Origin: Clostridium sp.
Lineage (GTDB): Bacteria > Bacteroidota > Bacteroidia > Bacteroidales > Bacteroidaceae
Reading direction: 5' to 3'
NCBI GenBank assembly: GCA_023663705.1
Contig: JAMPGY010000027.1
Location: 1 to 33,197 of the forward strand
Length of the DNA stretch: 33,197 bases
Below are positions 311-7,123 of the stretch, in pieces (the stretch's first letter is position 1; every line of letters begins with the position of its first letter). Under the pieces are notes generated by a model, which worked only from the letters and a program-made list of their open reading frames with translations, was not told where the DNA came from and did not search any database. The translations under genes and the position numbers were made by a program.

Positions 311-324
311 CTACGGCTCGCCCA
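187..324. repeat. Six-unit 23-bp tandem array with variable 6-nt segments
   Basis: Six head-to-tail units start at 187, 210, 233, 256, 279 and 302. Read on the minus strand, each unit has a conserved part close to AGCCSCTTGCCTGTGGC (17 nt) and about 6 variable nt (TGGGCG, TGTCGA, TACCCC, TCACAC, TTCTGC, TCCCCC). The unit is not a multiple of three, so the array does not preserve a reading frame. The last unit (302-324) covers the final codons and stop of the DUF4248 gene, as if the array grew from the gene's 3' end. Confidence 0.85.
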
Positions 325-541
325 GGTGGCTCACGATGATGCGCACCTGGCGGGCGCTGAAGTAGCGGTTGCGGGGACGGTAGCCCGTGGCCAGCAGCTC
401 GTTCATCAGCGGGCGGCACAGGGTGAGCTCGGCGCGCAGGCGGGCCACGGCCGATGCGGGGGTGGACAGATAGGGGTAGTAGAAGGCGGCCAGCCGGCGC
501 TTGCTGTAGGGCCGGATTTCGAATGCTGTTGTTGTTTCCAT
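311..541 (-). CDS. DUF4248 family protein
   Basis: A 76-residue protein of a small Bacteroidales-specific family of unknown function (DUF4248). The visible family signature runs the whole length: FEIRPYSKRRLAAFYYPYL near the N-terminus, a central LCRPLMNELLATGYRPRNRYF, and the C-terminal FSARQVRIIVSHLGEP, which resembles a small helical DNA-binding fold. I chose the ATG at 541 because conserved residues begin directly after it; an in-frame ATG at 574 would add 11 unconserved residues. It lies about 200 bp downstream of, and in the same direction as, the VirE-N/DUF3987 gene, the usual partner of this family. Between them sits one copy of the 68-bp inverted element, so co-transcription is plausible but not shown. 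The function is unknown. Confidence 0.85.
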   Translation of the reverse strand: METTTAFEIRPYSKRRLAAFYYPYLSTPASAVARLRAELTLCRPLMNELLATGYRPRNRYFSARQVRIIVSHLGEP

Positions 542-629
542 GATTACGGTTTGTTTTTGATGTGAATGATTCATGCTGCGTTTGAATGAGGCGCGAAGAA
601 CAGCCGGGGCGACGAACCGGATCCCCCGA

Positions 630-739: not shown

Positions 740-3376
740 TCAGGCAAGGTCGGACGGAGGAAAGCTGTACACGCCGTCTTCCGATTTCCACAGACGGCCT
801 TGCCGCCGGGCACGCTTCAGCCACTGTACGGCCGTGGGAATCTTGATGCCCAGTTCCCCGGCCTGCGCCAGATAGTCGCGGCGGGTGAAGGTGTCGCCCA
901 TCCGGCTGAAGAGCGCCTCGCGGTCGGCCGATCCGCGGTGGGTGAGCTCCACCTCGGGCATGAGCGAGAGCACGTGCATGGCGTGGGAGAACATCACGCC
1001 GCCCAGCTCCATCACGTGGCCGAAGTCGGCCTCGCCGATGCCGTAGGTGTAGCGGGGCACGATGCCGTCGTCCACGTTGTCGGCCGGCAGGTCGGCGTCG
1101 GGCTCCAGCCCCTGCCCCGTGTGGAGGCAGCGCATCAGCGCCACCACGCTCATCATGCGCAGCAGCTGGGGGGCTATGCGCACCACGGTGCTCACGGCCT
1201 CCACGCCCACGGCGTTCTGCCCGCGGCGGAACAGGGCGGCCATGCAGGCGTCCAGGCGCTGCTGCTGGGCGGGGGTGAGCCGGAAGGTGAGGTGGGACAC
1301 GGAGCGGAGGGCGTCCACCCGCTGCTTCCACTCCGCGGCCAGCGTGCGGAACAGGGCGTCCATGTCGTCCGGGCGGTCGAACTGGCTCTGCCAGCGGCGC
1401 ACGGGGGGCATGTAGTAGAAGGCGAAGCGGCTGGCCAGCCCGTTGGCATAGGTCTTGATGAGCGCGCGCACCTGGCCCGGGGTGCCGGAAAGGAGGATGC
1501 TCAGATAGGTGGCGGCCACGGCCTTGCACTCGTCGTCCGTGCGGCGGTAGAAGGCGATGCCCTCGTGGTCGAAAGCGTTGCGCAGGGCATCGTCGAAGTG
1601 TCCGTAGTCGGCGTTGAGGGCAGCGCTGAGCGTGTCGGCCTCGGTCTGGAAGATGATGCCGTGGCCGCCGGAGTCGATAAGGTTGGCCTGTATGCCCGTG
1701 CCGCTGTTGTTGCCGGGGATGATGAACATGCGGCGCACGGGGGGCACGGGCACGTCCTGGGGCGCCACTTCGCTGCGGCGGCTGCCGCGGCTGTCGTAGA
1801 GCTGCTTCTGCTGCTTGTAGACGCACATCTCGGCCTCGTAGCGCCCGCGCAGCTCGTCGTGGTAGGGCTGCACGATGTGGCGCAGCCACGAGAGCGCGCC
1901 CTTGCCCGAGGCGGGCGGCGCCACGGCAAAGAACATCAGGCTGGGCGCGAGCCAGCGGCCGTCGTAGAGCGTGCGCACGCGGGGTGCCACGGTGGCTCCG
2001 AACACACACAGTGCCCCCAGCAGCAGGATGTCGCGCTGGGCGGGGGTGCGCCCTGCCTCCACCACGCGGGCCAGCAGCGGCGGCCACACGCCGGCGGGGC
2101 GGTCGAACACGGGCAGGGGCAGATGGGGGTCGGTGCCGTCGAACACCTCGTCGGCCACCTCGTCGGGGCCGAGGTCGTCATCTTCAGTGCCCGCTTCTCC
2201 ATATAATAATGTACCCGCGCGCGTAGAATGGAGAGGGGCTGTCCCCTGTGTCCCCCTTGTCCCCCGTGCCGCACCTCCGGCTCCCCCTCCGCCCCGTCGG
2301 GGCGCGGGCATCGTCCAAGTGCCGAAGTCGGCCGTGTGGCTGTAGCACGAGCGCACGATGGCGTCCACCTCGCCGCTGCCGAGGTCGCTTCCGCGCCCCC
2401 GGGCCCAGCTGTCGGCCTCGGAGCGGCTCATGCCCAGGCGGTTGAGCATCATCAGGCAGCGCATCAGGTAGTCGTTGCGTCCGCCCGGGGCATAGCTGTA
2501 GCCGTGGCTCCGCACCACGCGCTCGACAAACTCCACGGGCGTTTCGCTCCGCGTGTGGAAGACGAAGCGGCGGCTCACGCCGCGCGGCGTGAGGGCGGCG
2601 GGGGCAAAGGCACCCTCCGCAGGGGCGCCACCGGGCACGGCATCGGACATGGGCGCAGCCTCCGCAGGGGCGTCGGAAGGGTTCGCCACGGGTGTGGGGT
2701 AGTCTCCGGCAGCTGGGGTGGCGGGGTCGGCGGGTGCCTCTGCGCAGGCATCGCTATCGGCGGCGGAGGTCTCCGCCCCAGTGGAGTCGTCCCACACGAT
2801 GTGGGGCGTCAGCTCGTCCGTGCAGAAGGGTTCGGCCTCGGGGCGCAGCAGGGCCAGCGGGTCGTGGCAAAGGGCGGAGAGGCGTCCGGGGTTGGCGCAC
2901 GAGGCGTCGAAGGGCACTCCGGTCAGGTCGGCATAGTGGCAGTTGGCTATGAGGAAGGCGCGGCGGTAGGCGTCGCGGTCGGCCGTGCCGGGCACGGGCT
3001 CGTAGCGGCACATCACGCGCACGCCGCGGCCGGACACGGTGACGTGGCTCATCATCGTGTGGGGGTCGGCGTTCACCAGCCGGCGCACCTCCTCCACCCT
3101 TTCGGGCGGCAGGCGGTCCAGGTCCACCATCGTCACTCCGGTCAGGGCCGTGATGTTCTCCTCGCGCTTGCCCGTGCCGTCCAGCCGCACGGCGGGGGTG
3201 AGGCAGGGCAGCCGCGATTTCCACTGGCGGTGGCCCGTCCGGCGGTAGCGCAGGGTGAGTTCGTCGAGCGCTCCCGAGCGCATGAGTTGCAGCGCCTCGT
3301 CCCACGTGGCGGGGCGCGATTGGGTGGTGTCGAAGCCGTTCAGCAGCGACGGCATCACATTGTTCTGTTGCTTCAT
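740..3376 (-). CDS. VirE N-terminal (BT4734-like) and DUF3987 domain protein
   Basis: An 878-residue, probably cytoplasmic, primase/helicase-like protein common in Bacteroidales accessory regions. Residues about 15-180 form the BT4734-like/VirE-N domain: MVDLDRL (83-89) with the acidic pair of archaeo-eukaryotic-primase-like folds, SGRGVRVMCRY (115-125) and CANPGRLSALCHDP (160-173). After an Ala/Pro-rich linker comes a small helical segment (280-350), then a Gly-rich linker (360-395), then DUF3987 with a Walker-A-like APPASGKGALS (486-496) and a C-terminal winged-helix-like tail (from about 815). The Gly/Thr-rich linker (residues about 369-392) is encoded by copy B of the inverted element. 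The start at 3376 gives a natural N-terminus and follows a possible minus-strand -7 box (3404-3411). The role is unproven; the family is usually linked to mobile or phage-like DNA. Confidence 0.9.
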   Translation of the reverse strand: MKQQNNVMPSLLNGFDTTQSRPATWDEALQLMRSGALDELTLRYRRTGHRQWKSRLPCLTPAVRLDGTGKREENITALTGVTMVDLDRLPPERVEEVRRLVNADPHTMMSHVTVSGRGVRVMCRYEPVPGTADRDAYRRAFLIANCHYADLTGVPFDASCANPGRLSALCHDPLALLRPEAEPFCTDELTPHIVWDDSTGAETSAADSDACAEAPADPATPAAGDYPTPVANPSDAPAEAAPMSDAVPGGAPAEGAFAPAALTPRGVSRRFVFHTRSETPVEFVERVVRSHGYSYAPGGRNDYLMRCLMMLNRLGMSRSEADSWARGRGSDLGSGEVDAIVRSCYSHTADFGTWTMPAPRRGGGGAGGAARGTRGTQGTAPLHSTRAGTLLYGEAGTEDDDLGPDEVADEVFDGTDPHLPLPVFDRPAGVWPPLLARVVEAGRTPAQRDILLLGALCVFGATVAPRVRTLYDGRWLAPSLMFFAVAPPASGKGALSWLRHIVQPYHDELRGRYEAEMCVYKQQKQLYDSRGSRRSEVAPQDVPVPPVRRMFIIPGNNSGTGIQANLIDSGGHGIIFQTEADTLSAALNADYGHFDDALRNAFDHEGIAFYRRTDDECKAVAATYLSILLSGTPGQVRALIKTYANGLASRFAFYYMPPVRRWQSQFDRPDDMDALFRTLAAEWKQRVDALRSVSHLTFRLTPAQQQRLDACMAALFRRGQNAVGVEAVSTVVRIAPQLLRMMSVVALMRCLHTGQGLEPDADLPADNVDDGIVPRYTYGIGEADFGHVMELGGVMFSHAMHVLSLMPEVELTHRGSADREALFSRMGDTFTRRDYLAQAGELGIKIPTAVQWLKRARRQGRLWKSEDGVYSFPPSDLA
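2200..2268 (-). repeat. Copy B of the inverted 68-bp element (inside a gene)
   Basis: The reverse complement of this segment matches 630-698. The shared blocks are at 2235-2255, 2216-2228 and 2207-2214. It lies in frame within the DUF3987 gene and encodes the linker around residues 369-392 (GTRGTQGTAPLHSTRAG) between the primase-like half and the ATPase-like half. About 1.5 kb separates the two copies. Confidence 0.8.
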
Positions 3377-3684
3377 AATCGTTGGTATTTAGAATTAGCA
3401 CCGTAAAGCTATGGCAATTTGCGGCGCCGCCCCCATCTGTCCGCGCCGTCCTCATTCTGTCCGCAAAAGCGTGGACAGCGCGCCCCACACGCGCCCGGCC
3501 GGCGTCCCTACAGCAGTGTGCGATATTATCGCACATAAAATTTTTCAGGCTAAAGACTTGCAAGTGTTGAAGGAAAATAGTAATTTGGCTGCAATCCCAC
3601 CTGCGAAAAGCGAAGGGCGGGAACAAACCGAGAGAGAGAAGCAAGCATCGAGTGTTACTAACCAACTGATCAACAACCTGAATA
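3377..3684. other. Divergent intergenic region
   Basis: This 308-bp region separates the leftward VirE-N/DUF3987 gene from the rightward unknown gene. It holds a minus-strand TAGCTTTA (3404-3411) that could be the -7 box of the leftward gene, and a perfect 9+1+9 palindrome (3517-3535). Base composition shifts from GC-rich (3420-3510) to AT-richer (3535-3684). No strong plus-strand promoter match is visible, and no gene. Confidence 0.6.
3517..3535. promoter_or_regulatory. 19-bp palindrome, candidate operator
   Basis: TGTGCGATA-T-TATCGCACA is a perfect inverted repeat with a single central base. It sits roughly midway between two divergent start codons (3376 and 3685), where a dimeric repressor could control one or both genes. 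It differs in sequence from the hip operators at 5423 and 5483. Confidence 0.5.
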
Positions 3685-4383
3685 ATGGAAGAGGGAACTG
3701 CCCGGCAACTGCTGCTCAGGCTGCTGAGGGACGAGACCGCCGCCGAGCACTATCATCGCGAGATACTGACGTGCGCCAACGCACGCGAGCTGTTCGACCG
3801 CGTGATTCTGCCGCTCATCAGCGCCAGACTGGTGGACGAGGACAGCGCGCGCAAGAGCAGCTTCTACCTGACGCTGGCCCGGCCGATGGAGGAGCGCACG
3901 GGGCAGCCCGTGAACAAGAGCACGCTGCACGGACTCATCGACAGGCACTATACCACACGCAAATCGAAGCTGTCCACCGAGGAGCTGATGGCCCACATCA
4001 GCCGCACGCTGCCGGAGGGCGAATGCGTGAGCCTGACCATCAACCCGGCCACGGGCAGCATGCACCTCATCCGCATCACGCAGACCACCGTGGTGGACAA
4101 GGAAACGGCGCTGGAGCTGATGCGCGAGGGCTTGCGGCAGCACGCCGAGTTCAGCCTGCGCCACGAGAAGCACTTCAACGCCCGCCAGCACATCCGCCGC
4201 GCGGGGCTGCAGCTGACGTGCGAGGCGCCCGACGTGTGCGCCCTGCTCAGGGGCTGGCAGGCCATCGGGGGCTGCCGGGCGCTGCGCTTCACCTGCGCCA
4301 ACGCGCTGACGGAACAGGAGGGGCTGACGCTGGAGGAGGTTATCGACATGTGGAACTCCGCAAACACCGACGGCCATGTGTGA
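3685..4383 (+). CDS. Unknown protein, first gene of a pair with a HExxH protein
   Basis: A 232-residue, predicted soluble protein; I do not recognise its family. It has no signal peptide or membrane segment. The N-terminal 100 residues are mostly helical and charged (for example LLRLLRDETAAEHYHREIL, 10-28). A short beta-like stretch (CVSLTINPATGSMHLIRITQ, 114-133) and a helical, His/Cys-containing C-terminal half follow (C180, C185, C197, C204). The start at 3685 is the first ATG with coding-like composition. Its last 8 bases (ATGTGTGA) contain the start codon of the next gene, so the two are almost certainly translationally coupled and may act together. A regulator, inhibitor or substrate of the downstream putative metalloprotease are all possible; nothing in the sequence decides between them. 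Confidence 0.75.
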   Translation: MEEGTARQLLLRLLRDETAAEHYHREILTCANARELFDRVILPLISARLVDEDSARKSSFYLTLARPMEERTGQPVNKSTLHGLIDRHYTTRKSKLSTEELMAHISRTLPEGECVSLTINPATGSMHLIRITQTTVVDKETALELMREGLRQHAEFSLRHEKHFNARQHIRRAGLQLTCEAPDVCALLRGWQAIGGCRALRFTCANALTEQEGLTLEEVIDMWNSANTDGHV

Positions 4384-5410
4384 GCTAAATGGTTTCTACA
4401 AGAGGATAGTGAAGTCGTTCAACGTGTACAACGGCTTCCACGCCCGCCTGCTGGAGAGCCCGCGCTACGTGTTGCTGCCGCGCACGGAGACCGAGGAGCA
4501 GACCGTGGAGTTCAACACGCGCATGGAGGGTCTGCTGTGGCTCCACCGCATGGCGGCCGTCGACTCCGCCACGGCCGGCCGCGCCATAGCCGCCACGATG
4601 CTCTTCCACGCCTATATGCAGAAGAACCTGTATGTGCGCGCCGAGGACGCGCTGGCGGAGATGGAGAAACATCTGCCCCGTCTGTACCGGACGGCACAGG
4701 CCGAGGATATCGGACGGGTGGACGACGGCATCGGCCTGCAGATGGGCTTCCTGCTGGGGCACGAGCTGGGCCACATCTGCTATGCCTGCCGCCCGGAGCT
4801 ACTGGACGCCGACACCGCCGCCATGAGCCGCACGATAGACCGCGACCTGCAGATAGTGGACAAGATAATGGGCACCTGGAAACAGCGGCTGCTGTGTATG
4901 GTGATGCCCGGCGTGGCGCGGAAGAACATACGCAGCCTGGAGAAGGCGAAGGCCGATGCGGAGCTGCTGGAGGAGATGGTGTGCGACTACAGGGCCTGGA
5001 CAATGATGCGGGAGATACTGGAGTGCCACACGGGGGGCGAGGAGCTGGCCCGCCTGTGCGCCCAGGTGGCGCTCACGCTCAACACGCTGGAGGTGCACCA
5101 GGCCATCGAGGTTTTCTACCTGCCGCCCGACGCGGAGCAGCTGGACTTCGAGATGGGCTTCAACTCGGCGCGCCAGCTGGTGATCGGACAGGTTATCTGG
5201 GAGTGGCTCTACCACGAGCACTCGCCCCGGCTGGCCCATCACTATCAGACGTTTATCCGCCGATACGGCCGGCACGACCGCTGGAGCATCATCAAGGCGG
5301 CGCTCATGGATTTGCTGAGCCACCCCGACATCCGCCGCCCCCGCGCGCCCTACGACAGCAGCGAGGCCGAACGCCTCGACCTGCAATACCGCCAGCTGAT
5401 GGGCGCATAG
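4376..5410 (+). CDS. Putative zinc metallopeptidase with HELGH motif
   Basis: A 344-residue, predicted cytoplasmic protein. The clearest feature is GHELGH at 128-133 at the end of a hydrophobic helix (IGLQMGFLLGHELGHICYA), the gluzincin-type HExxH zinc site. About 66 residues later LLEEMVCDYRAW (197-208) offers a plausible third ligand (E199 or E200) with a nearby Asp, as in families with an ExxxD second motif. No signal peptide or convincing membrane helix is seen apart from a short hydrophobic stretch near 171-180. It overlaps the upstream gene by 8 bp and ends 12 bp before the first hip operator. The family is unknown to me; the motif recalls ImmA/IrrE-like and Lit-like intracellular proteases, but similarity outside the motif is not apparent. 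The coding call is strong, catalytic activity is an inference. Confidence 0.75.
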   Translation: MCELNGFYKRIVKSFNVYNGFHARLLESPRYVLLPRTETEEQTVEFNTRMEGLLWLHRMAAVDSATAGRAIAATMLFHAYMQKNLYVRAEDALAEMEKHLPRLYRTAQAEDIGRVDDGIGLQMGFLLGHELGHICYACRPELLDADTAAMSRTIDRDLQIVDKIMGTWKQRLLCMVMPGVARKNIRSLEKAKADAELLEEMVCDYRAWTMMREILECHTGGEELARLCAQVALTLNTLEVHQAIEVFYLPPDAEQLDFEMGFNSARQLVIGQVIWEWLYHEHSPRLAHHYQTFIRRYGRHDRWSIIKAALMDLLSHPDIRRPRAPYDSSEAERLDLQYRQLMGA

Positions 5411-5422
5411 CGCCACGGCCAT

Positions 5423-5440
5423 ATCACAATGCACTGTGAT
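5423..5440. promoter_or_regulatory. hip operator 1 (inverted repeat)
   Basis: ATCACAATGCACTGTGAT has perfect 6-bp arms ATCACA/TGTGAT. It shares its arms and most of its centre with a second copy 62 bp downstream, both upstream of the HTH gene. The likely ligand is the HipB-like protein. Confidence 0.75.
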
Positions 5441-5482: not shown

Positions 5483-5504
5483 ATATCACAATGCGTTGTG
5501 ATAT
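5483..5504. promoter_or_regulatory. hip operator 2 (longer inverted repeat)
   Basis: This is a perfect inverted repeat with arms ATATCACAA/TTGTGATAT around TGCG. It ends 5 bp before the probable -33 element, so a bound HipB dimer would contact or block RNA polymerase. Between the two operators lies a small hairpin AGGGG/CCCCT (5452-5469). Confidence 0.8.
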
Positions 5505-5572: not shown

Positions 5573-5779
5573 ATGACTGACTATCCGGAAATAGGCCAAA
5601 TCATCAGAGACCGGCGCAAGCAGCTGAACATCAACCAGCCCACGCTGGCCGCCTTGTCCGGCATCGGACTGAACACGTTGGTAGCCATAGAGCGTGGGAG
5701 TGGCAACCCGAAGATTCAGACACTGATAGCCGTGCTTGACACGCTCGGTCTGAGTGTGAACATAACCCTTAAAGACTGA
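5573..5779 (+). CDS. hipB: HipB-like HTH antitoxin/repressor
   Basis: A 68-residue protein that is almost entirely one XRE/Cro-type helix-turn-helix: IGQIIRDRRKQLNINQPTLAA leads into the recognition helix region SGIGLNTLVAIERG and then NPKIQTLIAVLDTLGLSVNI. This is the HipB arrangement: it should dimerise, bind the inverted repeats just upstream and repress its own operon. I chose the ATG at 5573; the same frame is open further upstream but that part crosses the operators and is unrelated to the family. The stop is 5 bp before the next gene. In tripartite HipBST systems HipB mainly gives DNA binding and complex assembly while HipS neutralises the kinase; that assignment here is by family analogy. 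Confidence 0.88.
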   Translation: MTDYPEIGQIIRDRRKQLNINQPTLAALSGIGLNTLVAIERGSGNPKIQTLIAVLDTLGLSVNITLKD

Positions 5780-5784
5780 ACGAT

Positions 5785-6111
5785 ATGCGCCGATGCAGAG
5801 TTTTCATCAACGGCACGGAAGCCGGCATCCTGACGGAGCATGAGCATCCGCGGGCCTACAGCTTCAGGTATCACGAGACGTATGTGGACATGGCACTCCC
5901 GCCGGTGAGCCTCACCATGCCGCTGCGGCGGGAGGAATACCGTGCGCCGGTGTTGTTTCCTTATTTTTTCAACCTGCTCTCCGAAGGCGAGAACCGGGCG
6001 CTGCAATCCGCCTTGCATCACATCGACCGGGAGGACGACTTCGGCATACTCCTGGCCACGGCACAACACGACACCGTGGGTGCCGTCACGGTGGATCCAA
6101 TCAACGACTGA
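5785..6111 (+). CDS. hipS: HipS-like protein (detached HipA N-terminal subdomain)
   Basis: A 108-residue protein matching the HipA N-terminal subdomain (HipA_1): VFINGTEAGILTEHE near the start, YSFRYHETYV, then PPVSLTMPLRREEY (39-52), the turn LFPYFFNLLSEGENR (57-71), and DDFGILLATAQHDTVGAVTV near the end. In classical HipA this region is fused to the kinase; here it ends in its own stop codon one base before the start of the kinase gene. That is the layout of HipBST, where HipS is the antitoxin that binds HipT. It begins 5 bp after hipB, consistent with one operon. HipS function is inferred from architecture. Confidence 0.85.
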   Translation: MRRCRVFINGTEAGILTEHEHPRAYSFRYHETYVDMALPPVSLTMPLRREEYRAPVLFPYFFNLLSEGENRALQSALHHIDREDDFGILLATAQHDTVGAVTVDPIND

Positions 6112-6112
6112 C

Positions 6113-7123
6113 ATGATGAATCCCCCGAGCATCAGCGTCTGCCCCTCCCTGCTGACAGCAGGGCACGCCACGTATTGCACGGCCGCACTCAGACGGCTGT
6201 TCGACGGCCGCCCCGTGAGCCACATCCTGAACTTCGACTCGCCGGCTTCTGCCGCCACCGACGGCCAACAGGCCGTGGACAACGCGGGGCGGCTGTCGCT
6301 CTCGGGCGCCCAATCCAAATTCGGGCTGGTGGTGGACGCAAGCGGCGCACTGCGTTATTCCAAGCCGGGCGAGCAAAGCACGCATATCCTGAAGCCCCGC
6401 CCGACAGGCTACCAGATTGTAAATCCGGACTGCTGTGCGGCCAACGAGCATCTCACCATGCAGATGGCATCGCAGGCCTATGGAATAGAGACCGCGGCCA
6501 ACGGGCTCTGCTTCTTCCGCGACGGACAGGCGGCCTACATCACACGCCGCTTCGACGTAGGCCACGGAGGAAAGCACGCACAGGAGGATTTCGCCTCGCT
6601 GATGGGACTGACCAAAGCGGACGGCGGTTCGGACTTCAAATACAACAACGGGAGCTATGAGGAGTGTGCGGAGATTATCCGCCGGTATGTGAAGTCCGCT
6701 CCGGTGGACATCCTACGCTTTTTCAGAGTGGTGCTGTTCAACTTCATCACCCTGAACGACGATGCCCATCTGAAGAACTTCAGCCTCGTGAGCCACGGGC
6801 GAGAGTATCATCTCTCACCGGCATACGACCTCATAAACACGTCTCTTCAAATCTATCATCCGAGGATATTCGCCCTGGACAAGGGGCTGTTTCGCGAAGG
6901 CATGCAACTGACCGACACGCATCAGGTGTCGGCAGACGATTTTGCCGAATTGGGACGCAGGGCAGGACTGCCGGAAAAGGTGGTGTGGCAGGAGATAAAC
7001 CGCTTCGCGACGGAGAACACGAAAGCCGACGCCCTCATCGAGCGCTCGTTCCTGCCTGCCGGGTTGAAAAGGATGTACCGTGCCGGCTATCACCACCGCC
7101 AATCGATGTTGCGGCCGCAGTGA
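6113..7123 (+). CDS. hipT: HipT-like serine/threonine kinase toxin
   Basis: A 336-residue HipA-family kinase without the N-terminal subdomain. Visible elements: the Gly-rich loop RLSLSGAQSKFGLVV (60-74), which carries the S-x-S pair (S62, S64) at the place where HipT kinases are autophosphorylated; the ATP-binding lysine in HILKP (K94); ETAANGLCFFRDGQAAYITRRFD-type hinge region (126-148); the catalytic stretch NDDAHLKN (215-222); and the metal-binding SPAYDL (235-240, D239). Tandem ATGs at 6113 and 6116 are possible starts; a longer frame reading back into hipS is an artefact. HipT of E. coli phosphorylates tryptophanyl-tRNA synthetase and HipA targets glutamyl-tRNA synthetase; the target here is unknown. 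No frameshift or missing catalytic residue is seen, so the toxin looks intact. Confidence 0.88.
   Translation: MMNPPSISVCPSLLTAGHATYCTAALRRLFDGRPVSHILNFDSPASAATDGQQAVDNAGRLSLSGAQSKFGLVVDASGALRYSKPGEQSTHILKPRPTGYQIVNPDCCAANEHLTMQMASQAYGIETAANGLCFFRDGQAAYITRRFDVGHGGKHAQEDFASLMGLTKADGGSDFKYNNGSYEECAEIIRRYVKSAPVDILRFFRVVLFNFITLNDDAHLKNFSLVSHGREYHLSPAYDLINTSLQIYHPRIFALDKGLFREGMQLTDTHQVSADDFAELGRRAGLPEKVVWQEINRFATENTKADALIERSFLPAGLKRMYRAGYHHRQSMLRPQ

Follow-up and report, generated by a model that had tools for sequence, protein, structure and literature searches.

An overlapping gene pair encoding a predicted zinc metallopeptidase and its putative partner in a Bacteroidaceae genome

What kind of unit is formed by two overlapping genes that resemble no known family, one of which carries the motifs of a metalloprotease? 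The genes, here called P1 and P2, lie on contig JAMPGY010000027.1 of assembly GCA_023663705.1 (deposited as Clostridium sp., placed by GTDB in the Bacteroidaceae), and the window in this text is the whole stretch analysed, positions 1 to 33,197 of that contig. An original prediction, made from the letters alone, described them as a tightly coupled pair of a soluble partner and an intracellular protease of unrecognised families. Results of our analysis support this description: P2 is predicted to be an intracellular zinc metallopeptidase with HExxH and a downstream glutamate (LLEE[ML]xCD), and the pair is rare, being present in 4 of 399 same-family genomes and named in no searched family library. 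The features of the pair are as follows.

3685..4383, plus strand: P1, partner gene, 232 amino acids (aa), without known family (open reading frame (ORF), codon statistics, family and profile searches)
4376..5410, plus strand: P2, predicted zinc metallopeptidase, 344 aa, without known family (ORF, motifs, relatives)
4376..4383, plus strand: 8-bp overlap of the P1 and P2 reading frames
4760..4774, plus strand: codons of HELGH, residues 129-133 of P2; HExxH retained in all four members
4964..4999, plus strand: codons of LLEEMVCDYRAW, residues 197-208 of P2; candidate third ligand E199/E200 with D204

Both genes were found to be coding, as GC content by codon position (0.63/0.44/0.91 for P1, 0.65/0.39/0.89 for P2) favoured only the claimed frames and codon log-odds were positive in these and negative in the five other frames of each gene. 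Since the highest 19-residue Kyte-Doolittle means reached 1.05 for P1 and 1.11 for P2, no membrane segment is indicated in either protein and both look soluble.

The two motifs of P2 were read as claimed: HELGH at residues 129-133 and LLEEMVCD, which contains the proposed ligand EEMVCD, at 197-204, with LLEEMVCDYRAW starting 64 residues after HELGH and E200 lying 67 residues beyond H133. From composition alone, 0.047 HExxH motifs would be expected in P2. A search of the 399 same-family genomes with P2 gave four positives, namely its own genome and three relatives, G429 (E-value 5.1e-7), G284 and G193 (3.2e-6 each), which belong to two genera other than that of the window. P2 shares 24-25% identity with the relatives, which are 53-67% identical among themselves. 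A profile of the three relatives scored P2 at 34.6 bits; the best shuffle reached 9.0 and none of 1000 attained the score of P2. Pairwise comparison with the two full-length relatives gave z values of 19.4 and 13.5, again with no shuffle (0/300 each) as good, and homology of P2 within this family is thus indicated by search, profile and pairwise tests alike. As contig ends divide the P2 gene of G193, the N-terminal portion on one contig served in the alignment and the profile test, the C-terminal portion on the other counted for the LLEE motif only, and G193 was omitted from the pairwise test.

The motifs proved to be conserved across this distance. HExxH appears as HELGH in the window, HESFH in G429 and G284, and HESCH in G193, and the second motif as LLEEMVCDYRAW, LLEELACDRQAW (G429), LLEELSCDRQAW (G284) and LLEELACDRLAW (G193), so that LLEE[ML]xCDxxAW is retained in 4/4 members (in G193 the two motifs are on separate contigs). 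The general features of HExxH metallopeptidases, the motif itself and a candidate acidic ligand downstream, are therefore present by sequence in every member. In the window H and E are 67 residues apart; for G429 and G284 the distance is 98, 31 residues longer. An alignment search in 160 relatives of G193 yielded two positives, both already known.

Results also showed that the pairing is not absent elsewhere. Directly upstream of all three P2 relatives lies a gene of 216-218 aa that overlaps P2 by 11-17 bp; in the four loci together these ORFs, with starts picked at ATG, measure 216-232 aa and the overlaps 8, 11, 17 and 17 bp. Because an overlapping, partner-sized gene precedes P2 in every relative, we consider that the P1-P2 pairing recurs in this small sample. 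Homology of P1 to these upstream genes is no more than probable: in a profile test none of 3000 shuffles and none of 235 control ORFs matched its score, whereas pairwise tests gave no support. The controls of the profile test were mechanical ORFs (ATG start, 120-600 aa) from 30 sources, P1's own ORF excluded, and not proven proteins. One relative's P1 weakly matches, over the same stretch, the response-regulator models CreB (2.7e-4) and PhoB (0.046), far below the cut-off. The genes downstream of P2 differ in all four loci, and therefore the unit comprises two genes.

To what known families could the two proteins belong? Searches of Pfam, NCBIfam, PADLOC (PADLOC-DB 2.0.0) and PHROGs gave no significant match for either. 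P2 had no Pfam match up to an E-value of 10, no PADLOC or PHROG match, and two sub-threshold NCBIfam matches (0.073 and 0.17); for P1 only sub-threshold matches were obtained (Pfam 0.1 and 0.12, PHROG 0.22). Among PDB sequences, single-protein searches reached 0.36 for P2 and 0.035 for P1 at best, and the P1 and P2 profiles matched nothing up to an E-value of 10. None of the searches placed either protein in a known family by sequence, the matches obtained being below cut-off or weak. In PADLOC, P1, P2, two P2 relatives and two P1 relatives were without match, and the third P1 relative had one SAVED match at 0.022. ImmA/IrrE (M78, PF06114) was absent from the matches up to E 10 of P2 and its two full-length relatives, in a search where most matches above 0.1 are removed by the HMMER filters. 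No helix-turn-helix (HTH) model, HTH_3 included, was among the matches of P1 or its three relatives, and the Lit (U49) model was likewise absent from the matches. The original interpretation is partly supported: a recurring unrecognised pair with a metalloprotease signature stands, and kinship to ImmA (M78) or Lit (U49) was not detected.

Wider searches, in genome samples that overlap in part, returned no further member. P2 in 150 related genomes and P1 in the 399 family genomes recovered themselves or noise only. In 393 genomes of the order P2 gave seven weak matches (E 0.012-0.048), five with internal stops and the remaining ORFs (L005, L007) without HExxH; P1 and P2 in 395 genomes of the phylum gave six, two with stops and the other four lacking HExxH in the matching frame. 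No P1 or P2 relative was found in the viral contigs, plasmids and phages searched, and peptide-word searches of genome contigs returned only P1 and P2 themselves or noise. In the literature, where no name exists under which the pair could be sought, no description of it was among the matches listed.

Upstream of P1, the perfect palindrome noted at the outset is real and lies in the divergent intergenic stretch.

3517..3535, no strand: 19-bp palindrome TGTGCGATATTATCGCACA, operator candidate (repeat analysis)

It reads TGTGCGATA-T-TATCGCACA, with perfect 9-nt arms around one central base, 150-168 nt before P1; of 1000 Markov sequences modelled on this intergenic stretch, 5 contained arms as long. 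Allowing up to three mismatches, one other place in the genome (43 contigs) resembles it, with two. In all three relatives CCGAAYGTTCGG occurs 46-70 nt before P1, and the window's palindrome differs from it and is longer; 5-nt arms such as those in G429 and G193 are common by chance (762 and 554 of 1000 Markov sequences). The upstream repeats fit a role as candidate operators and are compatible with autoregulation.

The pair stands between a primase-like gene and a toxin-antitoxin operon, as was first stated.

311..580, minus strand: DUF4248 stretch (limits as tested), 3′ of the primase gene
740..3376, minus strand: divergent gene with a BT4734-like_N primase domain (1.1e-30) and DUF3987 (3.1e-57)
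5573..5779, plus strand: hipB-like HTH gene (HTH_3, 7.4e-11), neighbour outside the unit
5785..6111, plus strand: hipS-like gene (Couple_hipA, 2.7e-21), neighbour
6113..7123, plus strand: hipT-like kinase gene (HipA_C, 7.7e-43), neighbour

The order in the window is thus DUF4248, primase/DUF3987, the divergent P1-P2 and hipBST. PMC5862659 places BT4734-like primases in the archaeo-eukaryotic primase (AEP) family and DUF3987 among predicted helicases of mobile elements, and adjoining HTH_3, Couple_hipA and HipA_C genes correspond to the tricistronic hipBST layout of PMC8262856. In 13 of 17 other same-genus genomes the typA flank was read; DNA similarity ended at the typA 3′ end in all 13, for which reason we regard the left part of the window as variable. 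Apart from short matches at E 0.05-0.1, these flanks showed no homologue of the primase, P1, P2 or hip genes.

Among the relatives, G429 carries an integrase, a 228-aa gene without Pfam match, Amidase_2 and HU-HIG, then P1-P2 in the opposite direction, followed by flippase-like, polysaccharide pyruvyl transferase and further glycan-type genes (those without Pfam match named by eye). In G193, a NusG-domain gene, Amidase_2 and HU-HIG precede a P1-P2 divergent from HU-HIG; contig ends cut the P2 gene and the following genes are unlike those of other loci. The 3.6-kb contig of G284 begins just before P1, and the first larger gene that follows with the same orientation encodes a protein kinase. HU-HIG and Amidase_2 thus recur in 2/4 loci, and in the three loci with visible upstream sequence P1 is divergent from a DNA-handling gene, HU-HIG twice and primase/DUF3987 in the window. 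The neighbourhood had been called defence-like. This holds for the window, where hipBST adjoins the pair, but by eye not for the other three loci; since hipBST also has its own operator-like repeats, the feature is window-specific.

Several further observations concern these neighbours. Before hipB, ATCACAATGCACTGTGAT (5423-5440) and ATCACAATGCGTTGTGAT (5485-5502) are operator candidates. Inverted repeats of 59 nt, 86% complementary, lie just downstream of and inside the primase/DUF3987 gene (631-689 and 2207-2265), the only two copies found in the genome, and GC-rich tandem units of 23 bp occupy 187-318, close to the left end of the contig. Small genes diverge from other primase/DUF3987 genes of this genome and of G011 (L034 9953-10254, L036 3019-3293, L033 5950-6279, L035 6646-6975), and a 109-aa type looks common to L033 and L035. 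A resemblance of P1 to these small genes was rejected (best E 0.32; 102/500 shuffles as good, and 165/500 with a hipB profile). No relatives of the primase protein were found in viral contigs.

A pattern search, HELGH-(60-70)-EE[FILMV]x[ACGSW]D[FY] with the first His codon fixed per search, matched six genome contigs and no viral contig, and with the other His codon one viral contig. The six look-alikes, proteins of about 425 aa, align as one family, which the seventh resembles; the three proteases tested had no Pfam or PADLOC match and none in NCBIfam better than 0.046. By eye, a dCTP-deaminase-like gene follows in 4/7 loci, is begun in a fifth and would lie beyond the locus end in two. These loci (L090-L095, L098) form a candidate undescribed module of a gene of about 150-190 aa, a HELGH...EExxCD protease of about 425 aa and a dCTP-deaminase-like gene, in diverse bacteria, with one locus on a viral contig next to a tail-like gene; the interrupted L095 protease frame was used in its first part only. 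Common origin with P2 was rejected: 160 of 200 motif-keeping shuffles scored at least as high as P2, pairwise z values for two members were 0.8 and 0.03, and hhalign joined only 17 columns round the motif that the pattern itself demanded.

What, then, would the pair do? P1-P2 would probably serve as a switch or as a defence device. Our preferred reading, held tentatively and short of an even chance, is a self-contained two-gene protease/partner switch, like ImmR-ImmA or CapH-CapP by arrangement. P1, the cognate partner of P2 and probably co-transcribed with it, would most likely be regulatory and possibly DNA-binding; P2 would cut P1 and so end or change its activity. The switch might act on the operon divergent from P1, primase/DUF3987 in the window and HU-HIG and amidase elsewhere, with the inverted repeats upstream of P1 as candidate operators.

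A role in defence or abortive infection, in which P1 senses or inhibits and released P2 cuts a host or phage protein by Lit-like logic, appears rather unlikely. The rare and patchy occurrence of the pair, the variable segment adjoining a toxin-antitoxin operon and a soluble-looking protease with a tightly coupled partner speak for it; yet PADLOC recognises neither protein nor four of five relatives, phage and plasmid records and the viral contigs yielded no relative, and, by eye, the other three loci have no defence genes next to the pair. We judge it less likely still that the pair is a capsule-locus accessory regulating or maturing proteins of an adjoining polysaccharide locus. In its favour, the G429 pair has amidase/HU-HIG on one side and flippase-like, pyruvyl transferase and glycosyl genes on the other, the G193 pair lies beside NusG-domain, Amidase_2 and HU-HIG genes, and Parabacteroides capsule loci that carry UpxY and amidase insertions are described in PMC9409006. 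Against it, the stretches read around the pair in the window and in G284 show no adjoining polysaccharide gene, and other proteins follow P2 in G193.

That P2 is a pseudoenzyme or metal-binding structural protein with P1 as its binding partner would be in line with AlphaFold2 models, made without alignment before the relatives were known, which were unusable as fold evidence (predicted local distance difference test, pLDDT, 36 and 40 for the two proteins). Both motifs have been kept although identity is only 24-25%, and in G429 and G284 although their spacing differs by 31 residues, which makes this improbable. Membership in the widespread HELGH...EExFCDF family linked to the dCTP-deaminase-like gene is the least credible explanation, although its seven members share the two motifs, a similar spacing and a small gene upstream: nothing is shared outside the motif, sequence comparison rejects it, and the gene after P2 is hipB. 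A more far-reaching reading, which we regard as doubtful, is an undescribed immune or switch system that works by proteolysis, in hosts that are probably Bacteroidales judging by these gene families. The activity of a zinc peptidase of a new family would be gated by a partner that evolves fast, and the two genes would be carried together as a cassette next to HU-HIG/capsule or primase genes. There the system would sense phage or mobile-element activity and cut the partner or a cell target.

How does the pair compare with known systems? Lit (peptidase U49) is an intracellular zinc metalloprotease that is not known to act with a coupled partner gene, and P2 differs from it in having no U49 match. 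In place of the pattern of ImmA (M78), P2 carries EExxCD. From the dCTP-deaminase-linked family, which it resembles in HELGH, EExxCD and a small upstream gene, P2 is set apart by the lack of similarity outside the motif and of the third gene, and HipBST is the next operon in the window, separate from P1-P2. PMC10233336 describes ImmR-ImmA modules as two-gene repressor/metalloprotease units on mobile elements; those of ICEBs1 and TnSmu1 resemble P1-P2 as a two-gene operon on accessory DNA with the partner first and the HExxH protease second, whereas P1 and P2 have no HTH_3 or M78 match, P1 being a possible DNA-binding protein. CapH-CapP of the cyclic-oligonucleotide-based anti-phage signalling system (CBASS), named in the same paper, is likewise a regulator and metalloprotease pair; unlike it, P1-P2 has no family match, and inspection by eye of the stretches read around it showed no CBASS genes. 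By sequence, the pair is a member of none of the tested families. Modules of one metalloprotease gene and one partner gene act as regulators of mobile elements and of anti-phage systems. This small, testable unit, which lies outside the searched family libraries and was seen next to HU-HIG/capsule or primase genes in three genera, would represent a further, independent lineage of such pairs.
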